Shown: piece by piece, positions 7,273 through 26,012 of the stretch
Position numbering within the stretch: the first letter of the stretch is position 1
How the letters are laid out: the number at the start of each line of letters is the position of its first letter
Source of the DNA: an uncultured Litoreibacter sp.
Lineage (GTDB): Bacteria; Pseudomonadota; Alphaproteobacteria; Rhodobacterales; Rhodobacteraceae
Assembly: GCA_947494645.1 (NCBI GenBank)
Contig: CANLVO010000002.1
Span: 862,359-926,358, forward strand
DNA length: 64,000 bases
Direction: 5' to 3'
The notes under the pieces: generated by a model
What the model was told of the DNA's origin: nothing
Databases searched by the model: none
What the model saw: the letters and a program-made list of their open reading frames with translations, nothing else
Program-made: the position numbers and the translations under genes

Positions 7273-7273
7273 C

Positions 7274-10521: not shown

Positions 10522-10544
10522 AGCCCCAGAAAGGGAGAAGACCC

Positions 10545-11603
10545 ATGTCAGGTTTGACCATCAGAAACGTGATTAAGCGCTACGGCGATGTGCAGGTGAT
10601 GCATGGCGTTGATCTTGATATTGGCGATGGCGAGTTCTGCGTCTTCGTGGGCCCGTCGGGCTGCGGCAAGTCCACCTTGCTGCGGATGATCGCGGGGCTG
10701 GAAGAGATCACGGAAGGGTCTGTCTCGATTGGGGAGCGTGACGTGACGCGCATGGACCCGTCGGAGCGCGGCGTGGCGATGGTGTTCCAGACCTACGCTT
10801 TGTACCCGCATATGACGGTGAAGGAGAATATGGGGTTCGGCCTGAAGATGAACGGGCACCCCAAGGCGGTGATCGAAGAGAAGGTGGCGGAGGCCACGCG
10901 CATTCTGAAGCTCGAAGAGTATCTGGCGCGCAAACCCGCCGCCCTGTCGGGCGGTCAGCGGCAGCGTGTGTCGATTGGCCGGGCGATTGTTCGCGGCCCG
11001 GAAGTGTTCCTGTTTGACGAACCGCTGTCCAACCTGGATGCCGAGCTGCGTGTGGAAATGCGTGTGGAGATCGCGCGCCTGCACAAGGAAATTGGCGCCA
11101 CGATGATTTACGTGACCCACGATCAGGTTGAGGCGATGACCCTGGCCGACAAGATCGTGGTGCTGCGGGCGGGCCGGATCGAGCAAGTGGGTGCACCGCT
11201 GGAGCTGTACCGCAACCCTGACAACAAGTTTGTCGCTGGGTTCATCGGGTCTCCGGCGATGAACTTCTTGGAGGGATCGGTGAAAGGCGGCAAGGTCAAC
11301 GTGCCTGCGCTGCGTCAGGATTGCGCGGTGGACGTGACTTTGCCTGCGGACGGAACTGCCGTGTCCATCGGCTTGCGGCCTGAGCATCTGGTGATTGATC
11401 CGAAAGGCGACACACATTCTGTGGAGCTGACAGAGGCTTTGGGCGGCGTGTCCTATGCCTACCTGATGAGCGACACGGGCGAGAAGATCATCGTGGAAGA
11501 GCGCGGCGACGATCGGTCGGAGGAAGGCTCTCGTGTTGGGCTGACATTGGACCTGCCGCGCGCGATGGTGTTTGACGGCCAAACGGAGGCCCGCATCCGC
11601 TAA
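10545..11603 (+). CDS. Sugar ABC transporter ATP-binding protein (UgpC/MsmK type)
   Basis: 352-residue ATPase energising a CUT1 importer. Walker A GPSGCGKST is at about residues 36-44, the signature LSGGQRQRVSIGRA near 134, Walker B VFLFDEPLSNLD just after, then the H-loop YVTHDQ. The C-terminal OB-type regulatory domain typical of UgpC/MalK follows. A clear AAAGGGAGAA ribosome site precedes ATG 10545. It sits behind the IclR gene and is the only ATPase near the two permeases encoded to the left, so it is assigned to that transporter; proteins of this type often serve several importers. Confidence 0.92.
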   Translation: MSGLTIRNVIKRYGDVQVMHGVDLDIGDGEFCVFVGPSGCGKSTLLRMIAGLEEITEGSVSIGERDVTRMDPSERGVAMVFQTYALYPHMTVKENMGFGLKMNGHPKAVIEEKVAEATRILKLEEYLARKPAALSGGQRQRVSIGRAIVRGPEVFLFDEPLSNLDAELRVEMRVEIARLHKEIGATMIYVTHDQVEAMTLADKIVVLRAGRIEQVGAPLELYRNPDNKFVAGFIGSPAMNFLEGSVKGGKVNVPALRQDCAVDVTLPADGTAVSIGLRPEHLVIDPKGDTHSVELTEALGGVSYAYLMSDTGEKIIVEERGDDRSEEGSRVGLTLDLPRAMVFDGQTEARIR

Positions 11604-12501: not shown

Positions 12502-13263
12502 ATGCTGAGCCAGCGACAGAGAAAAATTCTTGGACTGATAGAAGCCCAGCAACGGGTGCGGGTGGAGGATTTGGCAGCGCGGTTTGCGACCTCTCCGCAG
12601 ACCATTCGCAAGGATTTGCAAGCGCTGGCGGAATTGCATCATGTGGTGCGGTTTCATGGTGGTGCTGCTTTGGTGGGCGGCGTTGAATATGCCTCTCCGG
12701 CGCAACGTGAAGGCGATGCCTCGGCGGCGAAACAGGCGATTGGGGCGGCGGTGGCGGCGCGTATTCCGCAGACCTGTGCAGTGTTCATGAATGCCGGCAC
12801 CACCACGGCGCAGGTGGTGCGGATGCTGTCGGGCCATAGCCAGCTGCGGGTGATCACCGATAATGTGGATTTTGCCGCTGAAATGCGTTTGTTTCCTGGG
12901 GTCGAGGTGATCGTGCCGGGCGGCGCTGTGCGGCGCAGCGACGGGGCAATTCTGGGGGCGGAGGCCGTGGATTATGTCCGGCAGTTTCGAGTGGATTATG
13001 CGGTGATCGGGGCCGCGGCTGTGGCTGAAGATGGCGCCCTTTTGGACTTTGATCTGGCGGAGGTGCAGGTCTGCCGGGCCATGATTGCTCATGCGGCGCA
13101 TGTGATTCTGGCAATCGATGCGGGCAAGTTCGGACGATCGGCTCCGGTGACGCTGGGGCATCTGAGGGATGTGCATACGGTCGTCACGGACAGGGTGGCG
13201 CCAAGTTGGGTGACACCGCTGTGCAGCAAGCATGAGGTGGAGCTGGTCTTGTCTGGCGCATGA
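12502..13263 (+). CDS. DeoR/GlpR-family regulator of the TRAP/sulfosugar locus
   Basis: 253-residue repressor with an N-terminal helix-turn-helix (MLSQRQRKILGLIEAQQRV onward, residues 1-57, containing ATSPQTIRKDL) and the DeoR C-terminal sugar-phosphate sensor domain (NAGTTTAQV near residue 95, PGGAVRRSDGAILG near 137). The start at 12502 gives the usual family N-terminus; an in-frame ATG at 12463 would add a hydrophobic stretch not found in the family. It directly precedes the TRAP genes on the same strand. A DeoR-family protein (CsqR/YihW) controls sulfoquinovose genes in E. coli, which is consistent with the assignment proposed for this locus. Confidence 0.88.
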   Translation: MLSQRQRKILGLIEAQQRVRVEDLAARFATSPQTIRKDLQALAELHHVVRFHGGAALVGGVEYASPAQREGDASAAKQAIGAAVAARIPQTCAVFMNAGTTTAQVVRMLSGHSQLRVITDNVDFAAEMRLFPGVEVIVPGGAVRRSDGAILGAEAVDYVRQFRVDYAVIGAAAVAEDGALLDFDLAEVQVCRAMIAHAAHVILAIDAGKFGRSAPVTLGHLRDVHTVVTDRVAPSWVTPLCSKHEVELVLSGA

Positions 13264-13272
13264 AGACAGTTC

Positions 13273-13330
13273 TTGACAGAGCCTTTCGGATTAACGCTAA
13301 TCGAAAGTAACGCGCTTTCGGCGAGTTTCG
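13273..13330 (+). promoter_or_regulatory. Promoter and TTTCG operators before the TRAP operon
   Basis: A sigma70-like promoter is visible: TTGACA (13273-13278), 17 bp, GCTAAT (13296-13301). An imperfect inverted repeat CTTTCG...CGAAAG spans the spacer and the -10 box (about 13283-13307). Two more TTTCG words follow at 13316 and 13326. Overlap with the promoter suggests repression by the DeoR protein encoded just upstream. Confidence 0.6.
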
Positions 13331-13355
13331 AATTTTGCGGCGTTCTGGGAGGAAC

Positions 13356-13946
13356 ATGGGCTCAGTCTTGGCAGTGACGCGCTTGCTGGCGCTGGTGAAT
13401 GGCACGTTGCTTGCCATTGGCCGGCACATATCGGTCGTCCTGATGGGGCTGATGGTTCTGGCGATTCTGATCCAAGTGTTTTTTCGCTATGCGCTGAACA
13501 ACGCCCTGCCTTGGCCTGACGAGGCCGCGCGGTTCATGATGTTGTGGCTGACCGGGTTGGTGGCGCCGACGGCCTACCGTCGCGGCGGCTTTGTGGCGAT
13601 TGACATGCTGGTCTTGATGATGCCGCGGGTGATCTCGGCCTTTTTGTCGATGTTCCTGCTGTTTGTCGCGCTGCTGGTTTTGGTCGTGGCCACCAAGATT
13701 GGCTGGGGCGAGGTCACGGGCTTTGGCGGCAAGTTCAAAACCGCAGCACTGTGGCTGCCGACGAATATCGGGTTTACCGAATGGTTCCGGGTGCCGAGGT
13801 CGTGGATGATGGCCTCGCTACTGGTTGGGGTCGCCTTGATGACGATGGTCACGGTCGGAATGATCCTGCGCCAGGTGCTGATCCTTGCGGGGCGCGAGGA
13901 AGAGCTGCCGATCATCCCTGAAGCCGCCACGTTGGGAGCTGACTGA
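13356..13946 (+). CDS. TRAP transporter small membrane subunit (DctQ)
   Basis: 196-residue four-helix membrane protein of the DctQ family; it couples the binding protein to the large channel subunit. Conserved features are the first helix near residue 22, FFRYALNNALPWPDEAARF (about 45-63) and RRGGFVAIDML. ATG 13356 follows GGGAGGAAC; a longer frame from a TTG at 13335 is not needed. It overlaps dctM by one base (TGATG). As the first gene behind the DeoR-type operator it likely opens a sulfosugar-inducible transport operon; the substrate is not shown by sequence. Confidence 0.88.
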   Translation: MGSVLAVTRLLALVNGTLLAIGRHISVVLMGLMVLAILIQVFFRYALNNALPWPDEAARFMMLWLTGLVAPTAYRRGGFVAIDMLVLMMPRVISAFLSMFLLFVALLVLVVATKIGWGEVTGFGGKFKTAALWLPTNIGFTEWFRVPRSWMMASLLVGVALMTMVTVGMILRQVLILAGREEELPIIPEAATLGAD

Positions 13947-15232
13947 TGCTTGTTTGGTTCCTGCCGCTGTTTTTGCTGTTTCTGTGCATCGGCCTGCCGG
14001 TGTTCTTCGGGCTGGTGGCAGCCCCCGGCATCTTGCTGTGGCTGAACGGGCAGGAGAAGGACATCACGCTGCTGTACCGCAACGTCTATAACGGGATGGA
14101 CAGCTTTCCGCTGATGGCCATTCCGTTTTTCATGCTGGCGGGCGAGATGATGAACCGGGGCGGCATCACGATGCGGCTGGTGGAGTTTTCGCAGGCTTGT
14201 GTGGGGCATTTGAAGGGCGGTTTGGCGCAGGTGAATATTCTGTCGTCGATGCTGTTTGCCGGGCTTTCGGGGTCTGCGGTGGCGGACACATCGGCGCTGG
14301 GCTCGATGTTGATCCCCGCGATGGAGAAAGAGGGCTACACGCGGCGCTTTGCGGCGGCGATCACGGCGGCCTCATCGGTGATTGGGCCGATCATTCCGCC
14401 CTCAGGCATCATGATCATTTACGCCTATGTGATGGGCGAAAGCGTGGCCGCGCTGTTTTTGGCGGGCATCGTGCCGGGGGTTTTGGTGGGCGCAGGGCTG
14501 ATGGCGATGACGTCTTATATGGCTAACTCCGCCGACTTCCCGAAATCGCGCGAGCGGGCGACGTGGTCGGAGAAAGGGCAGGCCTCGATCAAGGCGTTCT
14601 TCCCGCTGCTGACGCCGGTGATCATTCTGGGCGGCATTTTGGGGGGTGTTTTCACGCCCACCGAGGCTGCGGCGGTGGCGGTGTTTTACGCCTTCATCAT
14701 CTCGATCTTCGTGCTGAAAGAGATGTCTTTAAAGGACTTGCCGGATGTGTTGACCAAGGCGGCGCTGACCTCCTCGGTGGTGCTGTTGCTGGTGGGCGCG
14801 GCGATGGCGTTCAAGACGGTCGTGTCGCTGAGCCACGCGCCGGAGACGCTGGCCGCTTACATATTGTCGCTGTCCTCAAACCCGCTGGTGTTGCTGTTTT
14901 TGATCAACCTGCTGCTGTTCATCGTAGGGATGTTTCTGGATGCAGGCCCCGCAATCATCATTCTGGGGCCAATCCTGGCGCCAATTTTCACATCGCTGGG
15001 CGTCGACCCGGTGCATTTCGCGATCATCATGAGCGTGAACCTGACCGTGGGGCTGGCGACGCCACCGATGGGGCTGGTGCTGTTTGTGGCCTCATCTGTC
15101 AGCGGAGAGCGGGTCGAGGCGATTGCGAAAGCGATTTTGCCTTTCCTCGCTGTCGAAATTGCGGTGATATTCCTGATAACTTACGTGCCGGCGATCTCGC
15201 TCTTTGTGCCGGGGCTGTTCGGCTTTCTATAA
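13946..15232 (+). CDS. TRAP transporter large membrane subunit (DctM)
   Basis: 428-residue membrane protein with about twelve helices, the sodium-coupled transport subunit of a TRAP importer. Family signatures are FPLMAIPFFMLAGEMMNRGG near residue 50, SGSAVADTSALGSMLIPAM near 110, the PPSG loop near 152, and a C-terminal ATPPMGLVLF. It works with the DctQ before it and the DctP binding protein 30 bp after it. Confidence 0.93.
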   Translation: MLVWFLPLFLLFLCIGLPVFFGLVAAPGILLWLNGQEKDITLLYRNVYNGMDSFPLMAIPFFMLAGEMMNRGGITMRLVEFSQACVGHLKGGLAQVNILSSMLFAGLSGSAVADTSALGSMLIPAMEKEGYTRRFAAAITAASSVIGPIIPPSGIMIIYAYVMGESVAALFLAGIVPGVLVGAGLMAMTSYMANSADFPKSRERATWSEKGQASIKAFFPLLTPVIILGGILGGVFTPTEAAAVAVFYAFIISIFVLKEMSLKDLPDVLTKAALTSSVVLLLVGAAMAFKTVVSLSHAPETLAAYILSLSSNPLVLLFLINLLLFIVGMFLDAGPAIIILGPILAPIFTSLGVDPVHFAIIMSVNLTVGLATPPMGLVLFVASSVSGERVEAIAKAILPFLAVEIAVIFLITYVPAISLFVPGLFGFL

Positions 15233-15262
15233 AAACTGAAAAATCCAATGGGAGGATATTTG

Positions 15263-16336
15263 ATGAAACTTGGAACCACTTTGAAGGCGTTGGGCCTTGC
15301 GGCCATGATGGCCACAACCAGCGTCGCGGCCTGGGCCGATGGTCACGCGATGACCATTCGTGCGACCGCGAACTCGAATGAAAACGACGAGGATTATGAC
15401 GGTCTGGTCGTGTTCAAGAACTACGTGGAAGCGGCCTCGAACGGCGCGATCACGGTCGAGCTGTTCATCGGCACGCAGCTGTGCGGCAATGGCGCGGAAT
15501 GTCTGCAAGGTGTGGGCGACGGCACGATTGACGTCTATGTCTCCACCTCAGGTGGGGTGTCGGGCATCTTCCCGTTCATCCAGGTTCTGGACCTGCCTTA
15601 CCTGATGGCGGATGACCGGATTGCTGAGGCTGCGTTGGCCAACGGGTCCGAGTTCACCACGACGATGCAAGGCATGGTCAAGGAAGCGTCCGGCGACACG
15701 ATCCGCCTGATGACCATTGGCAACACTGGCGGCTGGCGCAACTTTGCCAACACCAAGCGCCGCGTGGCGGAGCCGGGTGATATGGACGGGCTGAAGATCC
15801 GGACTGTCGTGGCTGATCTGCCGCAAGAGCTGGTGAAAGCGCTTGGCGCGTCACCGACGCCGATCCCATGGCCTGAGCTGTTCACCTCGTTCCAGACGGG
15901 CGTTGTGGAAGGCTCCAAGAACGGCATCACCGACATCATGAACATGAAGTTCCCGGATGCAGGTCTGAAATATGTGACGCTGGACGGACATGCCTATATG
16001 GGCGCGCTGTGGTTCATGAACAATGAGAAGTTCCAGTCGATGGATGACGAGCTGAAGCGCGTTGTTGTGGACGGGTTCTACCAGCTGCAGCAGGCCACGT
16101 TTGCCTCGCCAAAGCGCAAGTCGATTCAGGCCTATGAAGATTTTGTCGCGGCTGGCGGCGATCTGTATGTGCCGACACCGGATCAGAAAGCGGCCTTCAA
16201 GGACGCGGCGGCCCCGGTGTATGACTGGTTCAAGGACAATGTGGATGGCGGCCCGGCAGCGTTTGATGCGCTGAGCGCGGCGGTTGCCACGGCGGAAGCC
16301 TCCGTGAATGCGGCGCGTGACGCGGACCTGAACTAA
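15263..16336 (+). CDS. TRAP transporter substrate-binding protein (DctP), candidate sulfosugar binder
   Basis: 357-residue periplasmic DctP-family protein. The signal peptide covers about 23 residues and ends in WADGH, so the mature protein probably begins DGHAMT. The domain shows the DctP patterns FIGTQLCGNGAECLQGVGDG and EPGDMDGLKIRT and the LFTSFQTGVVEG hinge region. ATG 15263 follows GGGAGG; a start at 15248 would swallow it. Unusually the binding-protein gene comes last, after Q and M, and is closed by a strong terminator. In the proposed reading it delivers sulfoquinovose or its glycerol glycoside to the enzymes encoded downstream. Confidence 0.9.
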   Translation: MKLGTTLKALGLAAMMATTSVAAWADGHAMTIRATANSNENDEDYDGLVVFKNYVEAASNGAITVELFIGTQLCGNGAECLQGVGDGTIDVYVSTSGGVSGIFPFIQVLDLPYLMADDRIAEAALANGSEFTTTMQGMVKEASGDTIRLMTIGNTGGWRNFANTKRRVAEPGDMDGLKIRTVVADLPQELVKALGASPTPIPWPELFTSFQTGVVEGSKNGITDIMNMKFPDAGLKYVTLDGHAYMGALWFMNNEKFQSMDDELKRVVVDGFYQLQQATFASPKRKSIQAYEDFVAAGGDLYVPTPDQKAAFKDAAAPVYDWFKDNVDGGPAAFDALSAAVATAEASVNAARDADLN

Positions 16337-16342
16337 GACATG

Positions 16343-16376
16343 TGGCGCGGCAGTCGAGGCTGCCGCGCCATTTTTT
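16343..16376 (+). terminator. Rho-independent terminator after the TRAP operon
   Basis: A perfect 11 bp stem TGGCGCGGCAG/CTGCCGCGCCA with a 6 nt loop is followed by six T. It separates the TRAP operon from the convergent Sel1 gene and implies a separate promoter for the enzyme operon. Confidence 0.9.
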
Positions 16377-16402
16377 CCCGTTTTCCTGATTGCGGATATG
16401 CG

Positions 16403-16433
16403 CCTCCGGCGGGAGGTATTTTTGAAGCAATGA
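16403..16433 (+). repeat. Roseobacter-type intergenic repeat, copy 1
   Basis: A CCTCC/GGAGG hairpin runs into TATTTTTGAAGCAATGATGG. The same 22 bp core recurs exactly at 55926-55947 in this window. It sits between convergent gene ends, so it may be a bidirectional terminator or a repeated mobile-type element. Confidence 0.6.
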
Positions 16434-16454
16434 TGGGGGTTGGCGCCCTTTGGA

Positions 16455-16919
16455 TCAGCGGAACGGATACATCCAAACTTTGTAATCGGCGATCAGCTCA
16501 TGCGCGTGGTCAATCTGCTCTTTGGTCATCTTCTTGACCACTTCCTCCTGGGAAATTGCCGCGTCGGGGTCGCCTCCGATCGCGCTGAGGGCGTACCACA
16601 TGTAGGCGCGGACCAGATCGGGCGCGACGCCGATCCCTTCCTCGTAATACCAGCCGATGCCCGACTGCGCGCCGGGATGACCCTTCATGGAGCTGCGCAG
16701 ATACCATTCAAAGGCGCGGACCGGGTCTTTTTCAACGCCGAGGCCCAACGCGTACATGACGCCGATGAGCTCTTCTGCGTCAGCGTTGCCGGAGCGGGCC
16801 GCGGGCCAAAGGGCTTCGCGGGCTTCTTCGAATTTAAGAGCCTCCATCAGGTCGCGGGCCTTTTCGATATCGGCCAAGGCGGGGGCGGTCATGAGCGCAA
16901 GGGCAAGAAGAAATCGCAT
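16455..16919 (-). CDS. Sel1-repeat protein, secreted
   Basis: 154-residue protein with a short signal peptide (MRFLLALALMTAPALA) and two to three Sel1-like repeats, seen as ELIGVMYALGLGVEKDPVRAFEWYLRSS and QSGIGWYYEEGIGVAPDLVRAYMWY in the central part. Such alpha-solenoids mediate protein contacts in the envelope. ATG 16919 is chosen because GGAG lies just before it and the signal peptide starts there; ATG 16931 is an alternative. It is divergent from the diheme peroxidase gene, whose start is only about 15 bp away, so the two share a promoter region. No specific partner can be named. Confidence 0.8.
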   Translation of the reverse strand: MRFLLALALMTAPALADIEKARDLMEALKFEEAREALWPAARSGNADAEELIGVMYALGLGVEKDPVRAFEWYLRSSMKGHPGAQSGIGWYYEEGIGVAPDLVRAYMWYALSAIGGDPDAAISQEEVVKKMTKEQIDHAHELIADYKVWMYPFR

Positions 16920-16934
16920 CGGGGTCTCCATCTG

Positions 16935-18185
16935 TTGGGGGCAGTTTGGCTTGCGCTTGCAGGACCTGCAATGGCTGACGCGCCGGAGGGGATGTTCGCG
17001 CCCATTGATGCGGAGATGGCGGCGATTGGGCAGCTGTTGTTTTACGACCCGATCTTGTCGGGCAACCAGAATATTTCCTGCGGCACCTGCCACAACCATG
17101 ACCATTTCAGCGCTGATGGGGTGAGCCTTGGTATTGGCGAGGGGGGTGTCGGGCTGGGGCCAAAGCGGGTGACGCTTGAGGGACCGGATCAGATCAAGAA
17201 GCGTATCCCGCGCAACGCGCAGGCGCTGTTTAATGTGGGCGCTTTGGAGGTGTTCTTTCATGACGGGCGGTTAGGAGCCTCGCCGGATTACGGCAATGGG
17301 GTCAATTCGCCGGCGGAAGAGTTTTTGCCCAAGGGGTTGAACAGCATTCTGGCGGCGCAGGCGCTGTTTCCGATGACGTCGCAATTCGAGATGGCGGGCA
17401 ACCCGAAAGAAAACGAAGTGGCCGGGGCCATTCATGACCGCATCGACATGGCGTGGCCCATTCTGGCCAAACGGGTACGGATCAACGACACCTACCGCGA
17501 GATGTTTGCGGGAGCTGGGGTGGAGCAGGTCTCTATCGCAGATATCGGCAACGCTTTGGCGGCCTTTATGGACGCGGAGTGGCGGTCTTTCGACAGCGCT
17601 TACGACCTTGGCACGATGAACGCGGCGCAGGTGCGGGGCGCGGATTTGTTCTTTGGCGAGGCGGGCTGTGCCGACTGCCATGGCGGGCCGCTTTTCACCG
17701 ATGAGGGGTTTCACGCGATTGGGTTGCCGCCCTTTGGTCCGGGCCGCACACGGCGGTTCGACCCGATGCCGCGCGATGTGGGGCGGATGGCAGAGAGCGA
17801 CGCGTTGGAAGACGCCTACCGGTTCCGTACGCCGTCGCTGCGCAATGTCGCGCTGACCGGACCGTACGGGCATAACGGGGCCTACCCGACATTGGAGGGG
17901 ATTATTCGCCACCACGCGGACCCTGTTGGAAGCTTGGACATGTGGCAGCCAGAGATGGCGCAACTGCCTTCGGTGCCTTGGCTGCAGCAGGCAGATTTTC
18001 TGATCCAGCAGGACGTGCGGGAGATGGCGCGGGTGCGGGCGGCGATTGATCTGGAGCCGCAGGCGCTGAGCGACGCGGAGATCATGGATCTGGTGGCCTT
18101 CATGGGGGCGCTGACCGGCAAACGCTCCATCCATGGGCGGCTGGGGAAACCTGAAGCTGTGCCCAGCGGGCTGAGGGTGGATTGA
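16935..18185 (+). CDS. Diheme cytochrome c peroxidase / MauG-family protein
   Basis: About 416-residue periplasmic diheme protein. Heme motifs are CGTCH (Cys about 49) and CADCH (Cys about 245); FRTPSLRNVALTGPYGHNG near residue 300 is the family's conserved loop. No ATG gives a signal peptide; the frame before MADAP reads LGAVWLALAGPAMA, so a TTG at 16935 (or CTG 16932) is the likely start, with cleavage after AMA. The frame stays open to 16440 but that part lies opposite the Sel1 gene. The stop overlaps the start of the kinase gene (TGATG), so it is translationally coupled to the sulfosugar enzymes. Substrate and role there are unknown. Confidence 0.8.
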   Translation: MGAVWLALAGPAMADAPEGMFAPIDAEMAAIGQLLFYDPILSGNQNISCGTCHNHDHFSADGVSLGIGEGGVGLGPKRVTLEGPDQIKKRIPRNAQALFNVGALEVFFHDGRLGASPDYGNGVNSPAEEFLPKGLNSILAAQALFPMTSQFEMAGNPKENEVAGAIHDRIDMAWPILAKRVRINDTYREMFAGAGVEQVSIADIGNALAAFMDAEWRSFDSAYDLGTMNAAQVRGADLFFGEAGCADCHGGPLFTDEGFHAIGLPPFGPGRTRRFDPMPRDVGRMAESDALEDAYRFRTPSLRNVALTGPYGHNGAYPTLEGIIRHHADPVGSLDMWQPEMAQLPSVPWLQQADFLIQQDVREMARVRAAIDLEPQALSDAEIMDLVAFMGALTGKRSIHGRLGKPEAVPSGLRVD

Positions 18186-19054
18186 TGGCGCGTGTGATGG
18201 TGGCAGGCTCGGCCGCGTTGGATTTTGTGTTCCAGATGGAGGCGCTGCCTGCGCGGGCGGAAAAATACGCCGCAGACACGGTGGATATCGTGGGCGGTGG
18301 ATGCGCGGCCAATGCGGCGGTGGCGATTGCCCGGCTGGGTGGTGACGCGCAGCTTTTGGCGCGGTTCGGGCGCGATGATGTGTGCGATCTGGTGCTGGAA
18401 GATATCCGCGCCGAGGGCGTGGACGTTGGGCCATGTGTGATCACGGAGGGGGCACGCTCGGCCATGTCGTCGGTCTATGTGGACGGGGCGGGGGAGCGGC
18501 AGATCATGGCGTTTCGCGGCGCGGGGCTGGCGAAGGATCCGGGGCTTTTAGAGCTGCGGGCTGACGCGGTTCTTGCGGACACGCGCTGGCCGGAGGCCGC
18601 GCGACAAGTGATCGAGATGGGGGGCGCCTTGGGCGTGCCAAGCGTGCTGGATGGCGAGGCCCCGGTGCCCGCAAACTTGGCGGCAGCGGCCAGCCATGTG
18701 GTGTTTTCCGAGCAAGGCTTGATGGACTTCACCGGTGTCGGGGACGTGACCGAGGCCTATGCGGCGCTGGAGCTGCCGGGCTGGTGCGCTGTGACCATGG
18801 GGGCTGCAGGCGTGCTGCATCCCGGCGGGGTTTTGCCGGGGTTTGAGGTGGATGTGAAAGACACGCTTGGCGCGGGCGACGTGTGGCACGGGGCCTTTGC
18901 CCTGCGGCTGGGCGAGGGCGCGGGTGAAATGGATGCGATGCGGTTTGCCCATGCGGCGGCGGCTTTGAAATGCACGGGCTTTGGGGGGCGCAAGGCCGCG
19001 CCCGACCGGACCCAAGTGGAACAGTTTTTGAAAGAGAGAATGGCATGCAACTGA
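18185..19054 (+). CDS. PfkB-family kinase, probable 6-deoxy-6-sulfofructose kinase (YihV-like)
   Basis: 289-residue ribokinase-fold sugar kinase. It has EKYAADTVDIVGGGCAANA at the N-terminal substrate region, the catalytic DTLGAGDVWHGA (Asp about 232), and a C-terminal RFAHAAAALKCTGFGGR. From memory these match E. coli YihV closely in position and wording, including the A-D-x-R-W motif whose Arg (about 134 here, 138 in YihV) contacts the sulfonate. The proposed reaction is ATP plus sulfofructose to sulfofructose 1-phosphate, feeding the aldolase whose gene overlaps its end by 10 bp. Another ketohexose kinase is the alternative. Confidence 0.75.
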   Translation: MARVMVAGSAALDFVFQMEALPARAEKYAADTVDIVGGGCAANAAVAIARLGGDAQLLARFGRDDVCDLVLEDIRAEGVDVGPCVITEGARSAMSSVYVDGAGERQIMAFRGAGLAKDPGLLELRADAVLADTRWPEAARQVIEMGGALGVPSVLDGEAPVPANLAAAASHVVFSEQGLMDFTGVGDVTEAYAALELPGWCAVTMGAAGVLHPGGVLPGFEVDVKDTLGAGDVWHGAFALRLGEGAGEMDAMRFAHAAAALKCTGFGGRKAAPDRTQVEQFLKERMACN

Positions 19055-20070
19055 CAGCAGGAAAACTATGGGGCATGCGGCGCATGGCCGACGCGGGCGG
19101 CGTGTTCAAGATGACCGCCGTGGATCAACGCCCGCCCATCAAGGGCCCGATTGCCGCGCATTATGGTGTGGATCAGGCACCTTACGAGGATGTGGCGCGG
19201 TTCAAGGCGATGCTGGTGGAGACGCTGCAAGGCGGATCGAGCGCGATGCTGCTGGACCCGCATTACGCGATCCCGGTGGGGCTGAAGCACTTGTCGCCCA
19301 CCAAAGGGCTGATCGTGACGCTGGAGGACTCGCTGTTTGAGGAGACTGGCAACGGGCGTCTGTCCTCGTCGATTGACGATTGGGACGTGGGCAAGATCAA
19401 GCGGATGGGCGGCGACGCGGTGAAGGTGCTGGCGTGGTACCGGCCCGATGCCAGCGCGGAGGTGAACCAGAAGCAGAAGGACTGGACCAAGCGCATCGGT
19501 GAGGCGTGTGCCAAGTATGACATCCCGTTCCTGTTCGAGCTGCTGGTGCACCCGATTGACAGCGATGCGGAGCAGACGAGCGACTATGTGGAGATGACCA
19601 CCAAGCGTGCGGATGACGTGCTGCGCTCGGTCGAGGCGTTTTCCGGCGCTGATTTTGGTGTGGATGTGTTCAAGCTGGAAAGCCCGGTGCCTGCGAAGGA
19701 TGTGGCTACGACCGACGGTGTGCAGGGTTTGTTTGACGAGATGGGGCGTCTCGCGGGGCGGCCATGGGTGATGTTGTCCGCTGGCGCGGGCAAGCCAGAG
19801 TTCAAGGCGATTTTGGAGCATGCCTTTGCCGCTGGGGCCTCGGGCTTTTTGGCGGGGCGGGCGATCTGGCTGGACGCGTTTCAGGCCTTTCCCGATTGGG
19901 ACGCAATCCGCGCCGGACTGGAAGGCGAAAGCGCGGCCTATATGGCCGAGATCTCCGCATTGGCGGATGCGAAAGCGACGGCTTGGGACAAACATGCCTG
20001 CTGGGGCGAGGGTGGCGCGCAGTTTGCGCCTGCGGATGCGTCGTTCCGGCATGGGTATGAGGGTCTCTGA
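19045..20070 (+). CDS. Class I LacD/YihT-family aldolase, probable sulfofructose-1-phosphate aldolase
   Basis: 341-residue class I aldolase of the tagatose-1,6-bisphosphate/sulfofructose-1-phosphate aldolase family. Landmarks are FKMTAVDQRP near residue 25, GDAVKVLAWYRPD near 125, the Schiff-base Lys in VDVFKLESP (about 210), PWVMLSAG and ASGFLAGRAIW. The last two carry the phosphate/sulfonate-facing residues in YihT as I recall it. ATG 19045 gives the family N-terminus and overlaps the kinase gene by 10 bp. Expected products are dihydroxyacetone phosphate and sulfolactaldehyde. Tagatose 1,6-bisphosphate is the alternative substrate, but the isomerase and Gfo-type neighbours argue against a lactose-type pathway. 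Confidence 0.75.
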   Translation: MQLTAGKLWGMRRMADAGGVFKMTAVDQRPPIKGPIAAHYGVDQAPYEDVARFKAMLVETLQGGSSAMLLDPHYAIPVGLKHLSPTKGLIVTLEDSLFEETGNGRLSSSIDDWDVGKIKRMGGDAVKVLAWYRPDASAEVNQKQKDWTKRIGEACAKYDIPFLFELLVHPIDSDAEQTSDYVEMTTKRADDVLRSVEAFSGADFGVDVFKLESPVPAKDVATTDGVQGLFDEMGRLAGRPWVMLSAGAGKPEFKAILEHAFAAGASGFLAGRAIWLDAFQAFPDWDAIRAGLEGESAAYMAEISALADAKATAWDKHACWGEGGAQFAPADASFRHGYEGL

Positions 20071-21413
20071 TGAAGATCGGGATATTGCCGCTGGGGCGGC
20101 CAACATTTGACGTGCCCTATGCCGAGGAAAAACTGGCAGGGATGCTGGCGGATCTGGATGCCTTGGAGGGCCACGAGGTCATTGGGCCGCGCGCTCTGCT
20201 GATGGAGGCGTCGCCGGAAGCGCTGGACGCCGTTGCGTCGGCTGATCTGGTGTTGGTCTTGCAGGTAACATTTACGGATGCGTCTTTCGTCGTAGAGGCC
20301 TCCAAGCTGGGCTTGCCGCTGGCGATCTGGGCGGTGCCGGAGCCTCGGCTGGGTGGTCGGCTGCGACTGAACGCGTTTTGCGGGCTGAACCTGGCGGGCC
20401 ATGCGCTGGGGCGAAACGGGGTCGGCTTTGGCTGGCTTTACGGCGATCCCGGCGAGGCTGACCTGGCGGGGCTTCTGGACGACAAATACGCGGTGACGCG
20501 CATTGACGGGCGCGAGCCCGGTGTGGCCGCGCAAACGATGCCCGTGCCGGATCTGCGCATTGCGCGGATCGGGGCGCATCCAGTTGGATTTGACACTTGC
20601 GCCTACGACAAGGCGGAGCTGAAGGCGCTGACAGGCGCGGAAGTGGACGAGTTGGAGCTGTCGGACATGTTCGATGCTGCGCGCGGTTTGGGGGACGAGG
20701 CAGTCGCGCCCTACCACGCCAAAGTGGCCAATGTGCCGAACCTGAAGGACATGGATGCGGGCGAGCTGGACCGGTCTTTGCGGCTGGCAGGCGCGCTGGA
20801 TATGCTGCGCAGCGAAAACAAATATGACGCCTTCGCCATTCGCTGCTGGCCGGAGACATTTACCGAGTATGGCGGCGCCGTCTGCGGCCCGGTTTCGATG
20901 ATGGGTGAGGCCCGCGTGCCATGCGCCTGCGAGGCAGATGTATACGGCGCGGTGACGCAGGCGATCTTGCAGGATGTGGCCAATGCCCCTGTTTTTCTTG
21001 CCGATTTGGTCGATATGAATATCGAACATGATACGGGCGTTGTGTGGCATTGCGGGCAGGCTCCGCTGTCGATGACGGATGACGAACCGATGGCAACGGT
21101 GCATACGAACCGCAAACAGGCGCTTCTCTATGAGTTCACTTTGAAGCCCGGCCGGGTGACATTCTTCCGGCTGTCTCAAGCTTATGGTGAGCCGAAAGTG
21201 GTGATTGCGGGCGGTGAAATGCTGCGCAGCGAAATGGCGTTTACGGGGACATCCGGCGTGGTGCGGTTTGATTATGCTGCGCAGCAGGTTCTGGACGATG
21301 TGATGAATTCCGGGTTGGAGCATCACATGGCGATTGCGTATGGCGACCACCGCGATGCGTTGCGCGGGATAGCAGCCGGAATGGGCCTGAACGTGGTGGA
21401 GCTGGGCGCGTGA
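20070..21413 (+). CDS. L-fucose-isomerase-fold sugar isomerase, candidate sulfoquinovose isomerase
   Basis: 447-residue protein of the L-fucose/L-arabinose isomerase superfamily, which interconverts aldoses and ketoses with a divalent metal. Likely metal ligands are Glu in CWPETF (about 262), Glu/Asp in CEADVYGA (about 288/290) and His in VVWHCGQ (about 327). The start overlaps the aldolase stop (TGATG). An isomerase of this fold, rather than the YihS type, is the hallmark reported for the sulfo-EMP2 route. Here it would turn sulfoquinovose into sulfofructose for the kinase. The family also includes isomerases of other sugars, so the substrate is inferred. Confidence 0.7.
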   Translation: MKIGILPLGRPTFDVPYAEEKLAGMLADLDALEGHEVIGPRALLMEASPEALDAVASADLVLVLQVTFTDASFVVEASKLGLPLAIWAVPEPRLGGRLRLNAFCGLNLAGHALGRNGVGFGWLYGDPGEADLAGLLDDKYAVTRIDGREPGVAAQTMPVPDLRIARIGAHPVGFDTCAYDKAELKALTGAEVDELELSDMFDAARGLGDEAVAPYHAKVANVPNLKDMDAGELDRSLRLAGALDMLRSENKYDAFAIRCWPETFTEYGGAVCGPVSMMGEARVPCACEADVYGAVTQAILQDVANAPVFLADLVDMNIEHDTGVVWHCGQAPLSMTDDEPMATVHTNRKQALLYEFTLKPGRVTFFRLSQAYGEPKVVIAGGEMLRSEMAFTGTSGVVRFDYAAQQVLDDVMNSGLEHHMAIAYGDHRDALRGIAAGMGLNVVELGA

Positions 21414-22501
21414 TCAGATACGGGATTATCGGCTCCGGCATGATGGGGCAGGAGCATATTCGCAATATTGCGCTGCTGGAGGGCGCTTGCGTGGGCGGCA
21501 TTGCTGATCCGAATGAGGAGATGCGAGGCCTGTCGGTGAAGAATTCCGGCGCGCAGGGCTTTGCCACGATGGAGGAGATGCTGGCGGCGGATGTGTGCGA
21601 CGTGGTGCTGGTGGTCTCGCCCAATGACACCCATGCGGGGATCATGCAGAAGCTGTTGGCGACGGATAAGCCGATCTTGGTGGAGAAACCGCTGGCCACA
21701 ACAAGCGCCGATTGCCGGGACCTGCTGAACATGTCCAAGGGCCGCGCCGCGCCGGTTTGGGTAGCGATGGAGTACCGCTATATGCCGCCTCTGCAGCGGC
21801 TGATGCAGGCAGTGGATCAGGGCGCGGTTGGCACCCCGCGCATGATGTCGATCCGCGAACATCGCTTTCCGTTTTTGCCCAAGGTGGATGACTGGAACCG
21901 GTTTAATGCGCGCACCGGCGGTACGCTGACCGAGAAATGCTGCCATTTCTGGGACCTGATGCGGCTGGTTCTGAAAAGTGACCCGGTGCGGGTTTACGCC
22001 TCGGCAGGGGTGGATGTGAACCACCGCGACGAGCGTTATATGGGCAAAATGCCGGACATTATCGACAACGCCTATGTGGTGGTGGATTTCGAGAATGGCG
22101 CGCGGGGCATGCTGGATTTGTGCATGTTTGCCGAAGGCTCGTTCTGGCAGGAAACCATTGCGGTCACCGGCGAAAAGGCACGGGTGGAGGCGTTTGTGCC
22201 GGGGCCTGCGAGGTTCTCGCCTGATGGCAAGGAGCGCGAAGCGGAGTTCGTGATGTCCTTGCGCGCACTGAAGGAAGAGGTGCGCGAGGTGGTGCATGTA
22301 CCTGAGCATATCTTGGCGGCGGGGGACCATCATGGCTCGACGTTTTTTCAGCATGAGAAGTTCTTGAACCTCGTGCGAACAGGGGTGGGCGCGCCGGAGG
22401 TCTCGTTGCAGGATGGCTACTGGTCTGTGCTGGTCGGCGAGGCGGCGGAAGAGAGCGCGCGATCCGGCCAAGCAATTGATTTGAAAGGCAAAGGCCCATG
22501 A
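21410..22501 (+). CDS. Gfo/Idh/MocA-family protein, candidate NAD-dependent sulfoquinovosidase (GH188-like) or sugar dehydrogenase
   Basis: 363-residue protein with an N-terminal Rossmann domain (GIIGSGMMG at residues 5-13) and the EKP motif with Lys at about 93, followed by a C-terminal domain containing EKCCHFWDLMR. The start is GTG at 21410, overlapping the isomerase stop (GTGA). Gfo/Idh/MocA proteins are usually sugar dehydrogenases. A branch of NAD-dependent sulfoquinovosidases (family GH188) has the same fold and occurs in sulfo-EMP2 gene clusters. No conventional GH31 sulfoquinovosidase is seen here, so this is the best candidate for releasing sulfoquinovose from its glycerol glycoside. 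Family is certain, reaction is inference. Confidence 0.65.
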   Translation: MIRYGIIGSGMMGQEHIRNIALLEGACVGGIADPNEEMRGLSVKNSGAQGFATMEEMLAADVCDVVLVVSPNDTHAGIMQKLLATDKPILVEKPLATTSADCRDLLNMSKGRAAPVWVAMEYRYMPPLQRLMQAVDQGAVGTPRMMSIREHRFPFLPKVDDWNRFNARTGGTLTEKCCHFWDLMRLVLKSDPVRVYASAGVDVNHRDERYMGKMPDIIDNAYVVVDFENGARGMLDLCMFAEGSFWQETIAVTGEKARVEAFVPGPARFSPDGKEREAEFVMSLRALKEEVREVVHVPEHILAAGDHHGSTFFQHEKFLNLVRTGVGAPEVSLQDGYWSVLVGEAAEESARSGQAIDLKGKGP

Positions 22502-23484
22502 TGTTTGGAAAGATGCCGGATGGCAGCGCGGTGGAGCGGCACCGGATCGAGGGCGGCGGGATGACCGCATATGTGCTGAGCTACGGCGCGGTGTTGCAGG
22601 ATTTGCGGCTTGCCGGTCATGACGCGCCGCTGGTGCTGGGGTTCGAGGAATTTGCGCCGTATCTCACGGATAGCCCGTATTTCGGGGCCACGGCCGGGCG
22701 CTGTGCCAATCGCATTGGCGAGGGTCAGTTCGAGATTGATGGTGTGGCCTATCAGGTCGACCGCAACTTTCAGGACCGCCACCATCTGCACGGCGGCTCC
22801 AAGGGGGTGGGCAAGCGCAACTGGACCGTGGAAAGCGTGGCTGAGGACCGGATCACGCTGCGGATTGAGCTGGCGGACGGGGAGATGGGATACCCCGGCA
22901 ACATGGTCGCGCGGTGCAGCTTTGCCTGCCTAGACGGCGGCATCTTTGACGTGCGGCTGAGTGCCGAGACCGACGCGCCGACGCTGTGCAATTTCGCCCA
23001 TCACAGCTATTGGAACCTCGATGGCGGGGCCACCACGGATGACCATGTGCTACAGCTGGACGCAGACCGGGTGACGGTGGTGGATGACGGGTTTATTCCG
23101 ACGGGCGAAAGCCGGGATGTGACGGGCTCGCGCTATGATTTCCGGCAGATGCGGCCGATCAAGGACGACGTGTTTATCGACCACAACCTGTGCCTGTCTG
23201 ACGCAAGGATGGATTTGCGCAAAATCGGGACCTTGAAGTCGGAGAAGTCAGGGGTTTCGATGGAAATGCGCTCGACGGAGCCGGGGTGCCAAGTTTATGA
23301 CGGGTTCAAGCTGGATGTGAAACCAAAGGGGCTTGGCGGGCGTTCTTACGGAGCGAATGCCGGCGTGGCGCTGGAGCCGCAGATTTGGCCCGACGCCGTG
23401 AACCATGACACATTCCCGAACGCGATTTTGCGGCCGGGCGAGACATATGACCAACACACGCAGTTTGTGTTTTCAAAAGGATAA
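22498..23484 (+). CDS. Aldose 1-epimerase (GalM-like mutarotase)
   Basis: 328-residue mutarotase interconverting alpha and beta anomers of a sugar in the cytoplasm. Family motifs are GATAGRCANRIGEGQF near residue 62, HHLHGG near 98, and NFAHHSYWNLDG near 165 (catalytic His); a Glu near the C-terminus (ALEPQIWPD) is the expected base. It overlaps the Gfo-type gene by 4 bp and precedes the dehydrogenase gene by 6 bp. In the proposed pathway it would equilibrate sulfoquinovose anomers before isomerisation, as mutarotases do in other sulfoglycolytic clusters. Confidence 0.88.
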   Translation: MMFGKMPDGSAVERHRIEGGGMTAYVLSYGAVLQDLRLAGHDAPLVLGFEEFAPYLTDSPYFGATAGRCANRIGEGQFEIDGVAYQVDRNFQDRHHLHGGSKGVGKRNWTVESVAEDRITLRIELADGEMGYPGNMVARCSFACLDGGIFDVRLSAETDAPTLCNFAHHSYWNLDGGATTDDHVLQLDADRVTVVDDGFIPTGESRDVTGSRYDFRQMRPIKDDVFIDHNLCLSDARMDLRKIGTLKSEKSGVSMEMRSTEPGCQVYDGFKLDVKPKGLGGRSYGANAGVALEPQIWPDAVNHDTFPNAILRPGETYDQHTQFVFSKG

Positions 23485-23490
23485 AGCGCG

Positions 23491-24933
23491 ATGAGCTACA
23501 CCAAATACATGAAAGAGGCGAACCTCATTGGCGGCACGTGGGTCGGCGCTGATAGTGGCGAGACCATTGACGTAACCAACCCTGCCACGGGTGAGGTGAT
23601 CGGCACGGTGCCGAACTCGGGCGAGGCTGAGACCTTGCGCGCGATTGACGCCGCGGACGCCGCGTTTGACGGGCTGGCGGGCATGGCGCTGATGGAGCGT
23701 GTTGGTTTGCTGATGAAGCTGCATGACGCGTTGATGGACAACCAGAAGACGCTGGCGGAACTGCTGACGGTCGAGATGGGCAAGCCGATGGCGGAATCCA
23801 TGGGTGAGATCGGCATCGGGGCGGCTTACGTGCGCTGGTTTGCCGAAGAAGTGCGCCGCGCCAAGGGTGAGATTATTCCTGCGCCCACGAATGGTCGTCG
23901 TTTCCTGGTTAGCAAGCACCCGATTGGTGTCGTGGGGATGATCACCCCGTGGAATTTCCCGTCTTCGATGCTGGCACGCAAGGTTGCCCCCGCGCTCGCG
24001 ATTGGCTGCACCGTGGTGGCGAAACCGGCAACGGCAACGCCCTATTCCGGGCTGGCCTGGGGCGCGTTGGCGGAAGACGCTGGTTTCCCGGCGGGCTCGG
24101 TCAATGTGGTGACGGGTTCGGCTCGCAAGATTGGCAGCGCGATTATGGATGACCCGCGCGTGCGCAAGGTGACGTTCACCGGCTCGACCGAGGTGGGCAA
24201 AGAGCTGATCCGGCAATCGGCTGGCACGGTGAAGAAAGTGTCGATGGAGTTGGGAGGCAACGCGCCGTTCCTGGTGTTTGACGACGCCGATGTCGACAAG
24301 GCCGTGCAAGGCGCGATGGTGTCGAAATTCCGTAACTCTGGGCAGACCTGCGTCTGCGCCAACCGCATCTATGTGCAGGCGGGGGTGTATGACGCTTTTG
24401 TCGAGAAGCTGATCGCGGCGACGGCGGCAATGAAAGTTGGCAACGGGCTGGAAGACGGCGTGGAGCAGGGCCCGATGATCGACATGGACGCAGTCGAGAA
24501 GGTTGAAGAGTTCATTGCGGATGCCACATCCAAGGGCGGCAGCGTGGCGCAAGGCGGCAAACGGCATGACAAGGGGCAGAGCTTCTTTGAACCGACCGTG
24601 ATTACGGATGCGACGCAGGACATGATGTTTGCCAAGGAGGAGATCTTTGGCCCCATCGCGCCCGTGTTCAAATTTGAGGATGAGGACGAGGCGATTGCCT
24701 GGGCCAATGACACGGAGTTCGGGCTGGCCTCTTACGCCTATACCCGCGACGTGGGCCGGATCTTCAAACTGACCGAGAAGCTGCAATACGGGATGATCGG
24801 GATCAACTCGGGGCTGATCACGACCGTGGAGGCTCCGTTTGGCGGGGTGAAGGAAAGCGGGCTGGGCAAAGAGGGCGGCAGCCAAGGTCTGGAAGACTAT
24901 ATGGAGACCAAATACACAGCGATCGATTTTTGA
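23491..24933 (+). CDS. GabD-like aldehyde dehydrogenase, candidate sulfolactaldehyde dehydrogenase
   Basis: 480-residue NAD(P)-dependent aldehyde dehydrogenase of the succinate-semialdehyde dehydrogenase subfamily. Catalytic residues are Glu in MELGGN (about 253) and Cys in GQTCVCANR (about 287, with a second Cys at 289 as in GabD). WNFPSSM and the TGSTEVG cofactor loop are intact. It is the last gene of the operon and is closed by a UUCG-loop terminator. In sulfoglycolysis, dehydrogenases of this type oxidise sulfolactaldehyde to sulfolactate. Succinate semialdehyde or another small aldehyde would be the alternative if the operon has a different substrate. Confidence 0.8.
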   Translation: MSYTKYMKEANLIGGTWVGADSGETIDVTNPATGEVIGTVPNSGEAETLRAIDAADAAFDGLAGMALMERVGLLMKLHDALMDNQKTLAELLTVEMGKPMAESMGEIGIGAAYVRWFAEEVRRAKGEIIPAPTNGRRFLVSKHPIGVVGMITPWNFPSSMLARKVAPALAIGCTVVAKPATATPYSGLAWGALAEDAGFPAGSVNVVTGSARKIGSAIMDDPRVRKVTFTGSTEVGKELIRQSAGTVKKVSMELGGNAPFLVFDDADVDKAVQGAMVSKFRNSGQTCVCANRIYVQAGVYDAFVEKLIAATAAMKVGNGLEDGVEQGPMIDMDAVEKVEEFIADATSKGGSVAQGGKRHDKGQSFFEPTVITDATQDMMFAKEEIFGPIAPVFKFEDEDEAIAWANDTEFGLASYAYTRDVGRIFKLTEKLQYGMIGINSGLITTVEAPFGGVKESGLGKEGGSQGLEDYMETKYTAIDF

Positions 24934-25031: not shown

Positions 25032-26012
25032 ATGCGAGCCCCTGTTATTGATAACCTGCAATATGTGAATTGGTCGGAGAAAGCGTTCCGGCAGTTGCGG
25101 GAGGGCGGCGTGGACGCGATCCATGTGACGATCGCCTATCATGAGAGCTTTCGCGAGGCGGTTTTGAATGTCGCGCAGTGGAACCGATGGTTTGAGCAAT
25201 ACCCGGACCTGATCATGCGCGGGGCCACGGGCGACGATGTGCGCCGCGCGGTTGAAACCGGGCGGACGGCGGTGTTTTTCGGGTTTCAGAACCCCTCGCC
25301 CATGGAAGATGACATTGGGCTGATCGAGGTCTGGCATCAGCTGGGCATTCGCTTCATGCAGCTGACCTATAACAACCAATCGCTGCTGGCGACGGGGTGC
25401 TATGAGGAAGATGACAGCGGGCTGACGCGGTTTGGCCGGCAGGCGGTGGCGGAGATGAACCGTGTGGGCATGGTAGTGGATATGAGCCATTCCGCGGATC
25501 GGTCCACCTTGGAGGCGATTGAGCATTCAACGCGACCCATTGCGATTACCCATGCCAATCCTGACTGGTGGCACCCGGCCTTGCGCAACAAGTCTGACGA
25601 GGTTTTGCGCGCCTTGACGGATGCGGGCGGGATGCTGGGTTTCTCGATGTATCCGCATCACTTGAAAGACGGGACCGACTGCACGCTGGCCAGCTTTTGC
25701 GAGATGATTGCCGAGGCGGCGCAGCGCTACGGGGTGCAGCATTTGGGGATCGGCTCGGATCTGTGTCAGGACCAGCCCGACAGCGTGGTGACCTGGATGC
25801 GCAACGGGCGGTGGTCCAAGGAGATGGATTACGGCGAGGGGTCTGCCGCGCAAGCCGGGTTCCCGGCGCAACCGGACTGGTTTGTGGACAACCGCGACAT
25901 GTCGAACCTGAGCGCCGGGTTGCTAGCGGTGGGCTTCGCGCAGGCGGAGGTGGACGCGATCATGGGCGGCAATTGGTTGCGGTTCTATGACGCGTCTTTT
26001 GGTTCGCGATGA
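25032..26012 (+). CDS. Membrane-dipeptidase-like protein (peptidase family M19), divergent metal site
   Basis: 326-residue amidohydrolase-fold protein of the M19/renal dipeptidase family, cytoplasmic by the lack of a signal peptide. VVDMSHSADRS near residue 148 and ITHANPD near 175 carry expected zinc ligands, and GIGSDLCQD near 240 the catalytic Asp region. The usual N-terminal H-x-D pair is not present: the corresponding start reads VIDNLQYVNW. This resembles, from memory, the dipeptidase-like gene next to dimethylglycine catabolism in Pseudomonas (PA5396 type). It overlaps the following gene by 4 bp. Substrate unknown; it need not be a peptide. Confidence 0.75.
   Translation: MRAPVIDNLQYVNWSEKAFRQLREGGVDAIHVTIAYHESFREAVLNVAQWNRWFEQYPDLIMRGATGDDVRRAVETGRTAVFFGFQNPSPMEDDIGLIEVWHQLGIRFMQLTYNNQSLLATGCYEEDDSGLTRFGRQAVAEMNRVGMVVDMSHSADRSTLEAIEHSTRPIAITHANPDWWHPALRNKSDEVLRALTDAGGMLGFSMYPHHLKDGTDCTLASFCEMIAEAAQRYGVQHLGIGSDLCQDQPDSVVTWMRNGRWSKEMDYGEGSAAQAGFPAQPDWFVDNRDMSNLSAGLLAVGFAQAEVDAIMGGNWLRFYDASFGSR

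Follow-up and report, generated by a model that had tools for sequence, protein, structure and literature searches.

Sulfoquinovose (SQ), a sulfur sugar found in the membranes of plants and algae, is produced at billions of tons a year (PMC10755693), and bacteria of the Roseobacter group have been described as using it mainly via the SQ monooxygenase (sulfo-SMO) route (PMC13372026). Among the sulfoglycolytic routes, the second sulfo-Embden-Meyerhof-Parnas pathway (sulfo-EMP2) is defined by the isomerase SqvD, the PfkA-type kinase SqiK (PF00365) and the class II aldolase SqiA (PF01116) (PMC9594981), and hybrid sulfo-EMP1/2 clusters have already been reported in Proteobacteria and Actinobacteria (PMC12890257). 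Here we describe an operon in a 64,000-nucleotide stretch (the window) of contig CANLVO010000002.1 from an uncultured marine Litoreibacter sp., which very probably serves SQ utilization by a pathway of the hybrid sulfo-EMP type. The host genome (3.44 Mb, 99.4% complete) is Litoreibacter-type, within the Roseobacter group. Sharma 2023 is reportedly the survey behind the hybrid clusters.

The operon lies on the plus strand from 12,502, the start of the regulator gene, to 24,933, the end of the dehydrogenase gene, and includes a tripartite ATP-independent periplasmic (TRAP) importer and a member of glycoside hydrolase family 188 (GH188):

12502-13263, plus strand: DeoR-family regulator (PF00455/PF08220; open reading frame opens at 12463, ATG at 12502; 35% identity to E. 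coli CsqR, E 4e-52)
13335-13946, plus strand: TRAP small permease, dctQ (PF04290)
13946-15232, plus strand: TRAP large permease, dctM (PF06808; TIGR00786 above cut-off)
15248-16336, plus strand: TRAP solute-binding protein, dctP, proposed SQ or SQ-glycerol receptor (PF03480; close relatives adjoin SmoABC-like genes in SMO-type congeners)
about 16455-16919, minus strand: Sel1-repeat protein (PF08238), divergent from the peroxidase gene
16899-18185 (start approximate), plus strand: di-heme cytochrome c peroxidase/MauG-family protein, here called cytP (PF03150; two CXXCH motifs)
18182-19054, plus strand: PfkB kinase, proposed sulfofructose kinase, YihV-like (PF00294; best solved match 7ag6)
19042-20070, plus strand: class I aldolase of the LacD/DeoC family, proposed sulfofructose-1-phosphate aldolase (PF01791; PRK12858 above cut-off)
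20070-21413, plus strand: fucose/arabinose-isomerase-fold protein, proposed SQ isomerase, SqvD/SftI-like (PF02952; NF048012 below cut-off; fold)
21410-22501, plus strand: GH188 NAD-dependent sulfoquinovosidase, SqgA-like (matches to 8zn9, 8qc3 and 8qc2; residues)
22498-23484, plus strand: aldose 1-epimerase, proposed SQ mutarotase (PF01263; 22.7% identity to YihR)
23491-24933, plus strand: GabD-like aldehyde dehydrogenase, proposed sulfolactaldehyde dehydrogenase (PF00171; best solved match the succinate-semialdehyde dehydrogenase (SSADH) 3jz4)

The six catabolic frames, from kinase to dehydrogenase, overlap or nearly abut; the aldolase frame opens at 18970, and the ATG at 19042 was taken as its start. 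The ten genes listed in the original prediction are all open frames at the places it gave and of the families it named (Pfam, NCBIfam). Its picture of one regulator, one TRAP system and an overlapping run holds for the overlaps, but importer and kinase are not contiguous: it had overlooked the Sel1-repeat and peroxidase genes, which fill the ∼1.8 kb between them, the end of the peroxidase frame (18185) overlapping the start of the kinase frame.

Set beside the described pathways, the operon combines parts of several. Its isomerase is of the SqvD type by family, fold and a below-cut-off match to NF048012, whereas the kinase matches PF00294 and not the PF00365 of SqiK, and the aldolase belongs to PF01791 and not to the PF01116 of SqiA. 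The YihS-type isomerase (PF07221) that sulfo-EMP would call for was not found in the operon, where the best similarity to YihS has an E value of 1.0. Because two of the three sulfo-EMP2 enzymes differ and YihS is absent from the operon, the pathway is best described as a hybrid, and the sulfo-EMP2 label of the original prediction does not fit. The combination of SqvD-type isomerase and YihV-type kinase resembles the enzyme mix of the reported hybrid clusters (PMC12890257), but the window differs in its LacD-type aldolase, which is near neither YihT nor the class II SqiA, in its TRAP importer and in the Sel1 and peroxidase genes. The pathway is a variant of a kind already present in surveys.

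Other described clusters share smaller or larger parts of this layout. Jannaschia faecimaris is named among GH188-associated clusters in a figure legend (Fig. 5 of PMC10755693), and a locus from this species is syntenic with the window across TRAP, Sel1, cytP, kinase, aldolase, isomerase, GH188, GalM and dehydrogenase genes; it differs by an extra SlcC-like gene between GH188 and GalM, and identities are 44-85%. Actinobacterial clusters with a tyrosine variant of GH188 are described with a fucose isomerase, a sulfofructose kinase, a sulfolactaldehyde dehydrogenase and GH188, the Y160 cluster also with a sulfofructose-phosphate aldolase (PMC11465081). The window instead has Leu in place of Tyr in the sulfonate triad, a TRAP rather than an ATP-binding cassette (ABC) importer and no sulfolactate lyase genes in the operon. 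The sulfo-EMP cluster of Arthrobacter AK01 likewise combines a YihV-like kinase, class I aldolase, sulfolactaldehyde dehydrogenase and GH188, but with a YihS-type isomerase and an ABC importer (PMC8873060; PMC10755693). Roseobacter-group sulfo-SMO clusters share GH188 with the window and, in five Litoreibacter-type genomes and genome G033, its TRAP-Sel1-cytP module, and differ in desulfonating through a monooxygenase instead of by sulfoglycolysis.

We predict that uptake of SQ or of its glycerol glycoside is the task of the TRAP system and that the GH188 enzyme releases SQ via transient oxidation at C3 with NAD, after which the epimerase would open or equilibrate the SQ ring. The fucose-isomerase-fold enzyme would convert SQ to sulfofructose, the YihV-like kinase would phosphorylate this to sulfofructose-1-phosphate, the LacD-type class I aldolase would cleave the product to dihydroxyacetone phosphate and sulfolactaldehyde, and the GabD-like enzyme would oxidize the latter to sulfolactate. 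Each of these reactions, and SQ as the substrate, is predicted from what was observed directly: the families, the gene order, their conservation, the GH188 residues and a module shared with sulfo-SMO-type loci. The sulfosugar substrate of the original prediction is well supported by the sulfonate residues of GH188, the NCBIfam match of the isomerase, the kinship of the kinase with YihV and the TRAP system shared with sulfo-SMO-type loci.

The sharpest identification in the operon is that of the Gfo/Idh/MocA protein, which by sequence is a GH188 member and is predicted to cleave SQ glycosides with NAD. Its closest solved relatives are 8zn9 (E 5e-115), 8qc3 (E 3e-109) and 8qc2 (E 1e-107), with the next match at E 8e-24; the latter two are structures of SqgA, whose sulfonate-binding residues are Arg166, Leu170 and Lys172 (PMC10755693). 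R152, L156 and K158 of the window protein align with this triad, and its catalytic set is present in the alignment (K93, Y124, E175, H179, H308). Across 40 aligned rows (window, 37 named loci and two SMO-type loci) all have the R/L/K triad, 39 have the tyrosine and 35 the final histidine. Two plasmid homologs lie outside this count: that of Zymomonas keeps the triad and that of Chlorohelix has R, V and H.

The isomerase matched one NCBIfam family at E 0.001, the SQ isomerase NF048012, and a phmmer search against the Protein Data Bank gave a single weak match to an unrelated enzyme (E 0.034). An AlphaFold model (predicted local distance difference test 93, predicted template modeling score 0.92, from a 28-row alignment) points to an arabinose/fucose isomerase fold, as the 41 best chains in a Foldseek search are all L-arabinose, D-arabinose or L-fucose isomerases (TM ∼0.46-0.59 on the query). 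The metal ligands of FucI are Glu, Asp and His. Invariant in the 28 isomerase rows are E288, D312, H418 and H419, which could be metal ligands.

For the kinase, the best solved relative is the E. coli sulfofructose kinase YihV (7ag6, 165 bits; 38.6% identity to E. coli YihV), and the EKY, VGGG, ADxRW, GAGD and ALKCT-GGR blocks that the original prediction named as shared with YihV do appear in the alignment with 7ag6. In a tree of 29 rows, from which a partial kinase (L066) was left out, 19 locus kinases including that of the window group with YihV and one Rhizobium kinase at 91/87, and seven other PfkB proteins of the host genome fall apart from this group. Best solved match, identity and tree thus place the enzyme in the YihV type, with a Rhizobium kinase of no known role inside the group. 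Three residues of YihV, Lys, Arg and Asn (N109), are said to contact the sulfonate (Sharma 2021). The Lys and Arg are kept in 20 of 20 locus or YihV rows; the Asn position holds Asn in 13 rows, Ala in four Litoreibacter rows and Ser in three. The Rhizobium kinase comes from a plasmid of Rhizobium sp. CC-CFT758 (L105, 651-16972) on which this YihV-like kinase clusters with a LacD-type aldolase, genes for a TSUP transporter and a member of the formylglycine-generating-enzyme family, and a sulfatase, with no annotated isomerase of the window type and no annotated Gfo/Idh/MocA gene in the stretch; the cluster may serve a different sugar, sulfated or sulfonated.

The gene set is conserved far more widely than chance would allow. 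Among 52 named loci fetched with the isomerase (several on short contigs, so that counts are lower bounds; some of these genomes recur under the genome handles used below), kinase, aldolase, isomerase and GH188 occur together in at least 29. Taken singly, the kinase is found in at least 42, GH188 in at least 37, the aldolase in at least 35, dctP in at least 31, the dehydrogenase in at least 24 and cytP and Sel1 in at least 22 each. The loci with the nearest isomerases (72-94% identity) are titled Litoreibacter. ComD and ComE genes lie ∼6 kb from the isomerase in six of the 52 (Shimia, Actibacterium), the sole pair tested (L046) scoring above the cut-offs, and nine have SuyA- or SuyB-like genes, a label of our own, since NCBIfam offers for them only galactarate dehydratase, far below cut-off. 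These sulfonate genes near the isomerase support a sulfonated substrate. Seven of the 52 loci (Chimaeribacter, Yersinia aldovae, Pseudovibrio, Cohaesibacter) carry the isomerase with GH31 YihQ-like and SqiA-like genes, and single representatives exceed the cut-offs for PRK10426 (L065, 994 vs. 553) and sulfolactaldehyde 3-reductase (L069, 485 vs. 348).

More distant isomerase homologs occur on plasmids. That of Zymomonas mobilis ZM4 (pZZM402, 128-11361) encodes an isomerase 38.5% identical to that of the window and a GH188-like protein with intact triad, together with a class II aldolase, an aldose epimerase, a TonB receptor, major facilitator superfamily transporters and an SSADH-like gene; the whole resembles an SQ cluster, carried on the plasmid of an ethanol producer. 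On pDEIPE01 of Deinococcus peraridilitoris, a fucose isomerase-like gene (27.6%), a PfkB kinase, a LacD-type aldolase, a TIM-barrel protein of glycosidase size and an SSADH gene together form what may be a distant SQ cluster. A plasmid of Candidatus Chlorohelix allophototropha has a homolog (33%) beside a pyrophosphate-type phosphofructokinase, a Gfo/Idh/MocA protein without the full triad, an SSADH-like gene and nitrite/sulfite reductase genes.

Within the window's genus the importer accompanies two catabolic routes. Among 21 genomes, 13 have the isomerase, five a SmoC-like monooxygenase (E<1e-250) and none both; all 18 carry close relatives of dctP (74-100%) and cytP (58-100%), although the dctP of one (G017) has an internal stop. 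Two well-assembled congeners without either route (G001, G010) have distant dctP and cytP only, and a third genome with neither route, G019 (57% complete), carries dctP plus a portion of cytP. In the five SMO-type congeners and in genome G033, dctQMP, Sel1 and cytP adjoin GH188 and SmoA-, SmoB- and SmoC-like genes. The Smo labels were assigned from gene order and family (flavin reductase, aldo-keto reductase and alkanesulfonate monooxygenase, respectively), with NCBIfam scores below cut-off for all three. SMO-type genome G026 has TRAP and GH188 genes, a peroxidase of only 44% identity and no Sel1 match. That two catabolic routes share one importer gives the strongest support here for SQ or its glycosides as the cargo of the TRAP system. 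To our knowledge, there is no characterized case of TRAP import of SQ.

It is conceivable, if unlikely, that the enzymes degrade SQ while the TRAP system takes up a C3 sulfonate, SQ being imported by some other means. Short sulfonates are known substrates of TRAP systems, and the isethionate-binding DctP (8t9t) is among the distant solved relatives of the window's DctP; a literature search, whose coverage lacked key papers, found no paper on SQ import by TRAP by title; and in genome G034 the TRAP-Sel1-cytP module has sulfatase-like frames as neighbors, and the isomerase is on a different contig. Against this, close TRAP genes adjoin GH188 in isomerase loci as well as in SMO-type loci, and in the latter a C3 sulfonate would not be expected; further, genome G187 keeps TRAP, Sel1, cytP and GH188 together on another contig than its catabolic genes.

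SQ import by the TRAP system, the reading that we prefer, leaves the role of the neighboring peroxidase to be considered. CytP is a CCP_MauG protein whose solved relatives span bacterial peroxidases and MauG, so that its reaction is not assignable from these. Sel1 is present in all 22 named loci with cytP, and its product is possibly secreted, judging by the N-terminus. We surveyed 198 genomes in 197 genera of the family at cut-offs of E<1e-115 (cytP), E<1e-90 (isomerase) and E<1e-130 (SmoC), the first picked after the genus search, in which close relatives scored 1e-139 or better and others 1e-108 or worse. CytP was found in 56 genomes, the isomerase in 18 and SmoC in 87, and none had both isomerase and SmoC (chance probability 1.5e-5). 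Either SQ route is present in 105 genomes, 54 of which have cytP; of the 93 genomes without a route, two have it (Fisher p 1.3e-16). These counts vary with the thresholds and ignore shared ancestry. Where cytP and the isomerase occur in one genome, the two are at most 15 kb apart in 12 of 16 cases; for cytP and SmoC the corresponding figure is 28 of 38. The two genomes with cytP and neither route (G141, G196) have peroxidases 54-55% identical, with no TRAP or Sel1 match in 20 kb; these peroxidases are probably paralogs, and the two genomes were counted as misses. About half of the route-bearing genomes have no cytP. Two of these are isomerase genomes: G118, with TRAP and catabolic genes, lacks both cytP and Sel1, and in G084 neither TRAP nor cytP was found in the 20 kb read. 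A specific role in sulfoglycolysis was rejected, as cytP also occurs in SMO-type loci, and a literature search on SQ and cytochrome c peroxidase gave nothing related by title.

We tentatively propose, as a possibility with the odds against it, that TRAP, Sel1 and the di-heme peroxidase make up a periplasmic front end devoted to SQ in the Roseobacter group, which would serve either catabolic route. The peroxidase would perform a needed periplasmic oxidation or a MauG/MbnH-like maturation on the receptor, the Sel1 protein or a sulfolipid-derived substrate, and behind this front end SQ would be converted to acetyl phosphate and sulfate in one organism by sulfoglycolysis together with ComDE, Xsc and a Soe-like complex.

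Several observations weigh against SQ utilization as the role of the operon. The 249 bits with which the isomerase matches NF048012 compare with a cut-off of 700, and a sequence-profile comparison with E. coli FucI was nonsignificant (prob 9.4). The sugar kinase 2rbc, without an assigned role, is nearly as close to the kinase as YihV (162 vs. 165 bits). The proposed grouping of locus kinases with YihV holds with the Rhizobium kinase inside and has support of only 59/0 without it; the residue corresponding to N109 is alanine in the window; and the Rhizobium enzyme, from a sulfatase-bearing cluster, carries all three contact residues, so the residues alone are no proof of a role in SQ metabolism. 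The aldolase had been called YihT/LacD-like, and its class I assignment stands (PF01791; PRK12858 at 321 bits vs. a cut-off of 184), with a lysine aligning with YihT K193, but it appears to be no clear YihT ortholog and is nearer LacD: among solved relatives 8tnf ranks first (295 bits), followed by LacD chains (up to ∼124) and YihT (∼67), BLAST gives 31.9% identity to Lactococcus LacD (142 bits) versus 28.2% to YihT (78 bits), and a tree with long branches places it firmly with neither. The dehydrogenase has SSADH 3jz4 as its best solved match, with the sulfolactaldehyde dehydrogenase 8c54 sixth. Two sulfonate arginines have been proposed for the latter activity (PMC10599462), and by-eye alignment finds both in the window enzyme and in E. 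coli GabD. The GabD-like family assignment (PF00171) is sound, whereas sulfolactaldehyde and succinate-semialdehyde dehydrogenases cannot be told apart by sequence.

An isomerase, a ketose kinase, a LacD-type aldolase and an aldehyde dehydrogenase would suffice just as well for another 6-deoxy or acidic hexose, such as quinovose, fucose or a uronate glycoside. Related combinations do exist elsewhere, with LacD-type aldolases, fucose-isomerase-like proteins (25-26%) and dihydroxyacetone-kinase-type genes, and no annotated Gfo/Idh/MocA gene, in stretches of Marinovum pMaD8 and Parasedimentitalea, and the kinase-aldolase pair beside a sulfatase gene in the Rhizobium plasmid. We consider such a substrate improbable, however, given the intact sulfonate triad of GH188, the TRAP module shared with SmoABC-like loci and the fact that 14 of the 37 named loci with GH188 also have ComE or SuyA/SuyB-like genes. 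A canonical sulfo-EMP2 pathway is scarcely tenable, because the PF00294 kinase and class I aldolase contradict it, even though the isomerase is SqvD/SftI-like and the same intermediates are expected (PMC9594981).

For sulfolactate, the product of the hybrid pathway that we favor, the genome offers a plausible continuation, in which ComDE and Xsc would convert it to acetyl phosphate and sulfite. ComD (149 vs. 148 bits) and ComE (241 vs. 222 bits) both score above cut-off; they lie on another contig, C1 (locus L095, 4766-11306), in a run of a histidinol-dehydrogenase-family gene, a short-chain dehydrogenase/reductase, a zinc alcohol dehydrogenase, comD, comE and a flavin mononucleotide-dependent hydroxyacid dehydrogenase, which resembles a dihydroxypropanesulfonate/sulfolactate cluster and is possibly one. 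The sulfolactate lyase SuyB was sought in the genome and rejected, the search giving only a 506-aa frame, 33% identical, read as altronate dehydratase. The remaining candidates lie outside the operon, at 28.8-38.6 kb of the window, with a MocR-type regulator:

35088-36857, minus strand: Xsc, sulfoacetaldehyde acetyltransferase, proposed later step (TIGR03457, 938 bits, cut-off 676)
34063-35016, minus strand: phosphate acetyltransferase (Pta) family gene adjoining xsc (PF01515)
33305-34066, minus strand: TauE/SafE-type sulfite exporter (PF01925)
28862-33293, minus strand: molybdenum enzyme, putatively SoeABC-like (catalytic 30477-33293, Fe-S 29740-30609, membrane anchor 28862-29740; PF00384/PF04879, PF04976, PF13247)

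On paper, one cell could degrade SQ as far as acetyl phosphate, sulfite and sulfate. These genes belong to a putative taurine/sulfite cluster (28862-45617) ∼4 kb 3' of the operon, which also has class III aminotransferase and taurine-type ABC transporter genes; the xsc cluster adjoins these and may be mainly for taurine, the transporter gene near xsc scoring below its family cut-off.

The immediate surroundings of the operon are of other kinds. Just upstream (4326-11603), a GH36-type alpha-galactosidase, an ABC permease, an IclR regulator and an ABC ATPase form an ordinary sugar locus. A membrane dipeptidase family gene (25032-26012) lies 3' of the operon and recurs in six of the 52 named loci, all titled Litoreibacter, with no evident link.

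The genus of the window presents a clean contrast, in which the same importer and type of sulfoquinovosidase are combined with different routes, sulfoglycolysis or monooxygenase, making the cost and benefit of two SQ routes testable within one genus. The operon also supplies candidate genes for TRAP import of SQ, and the conservation of its peroxidase suggests a step in sulfolipid use absent from the pathway schemes consulted.

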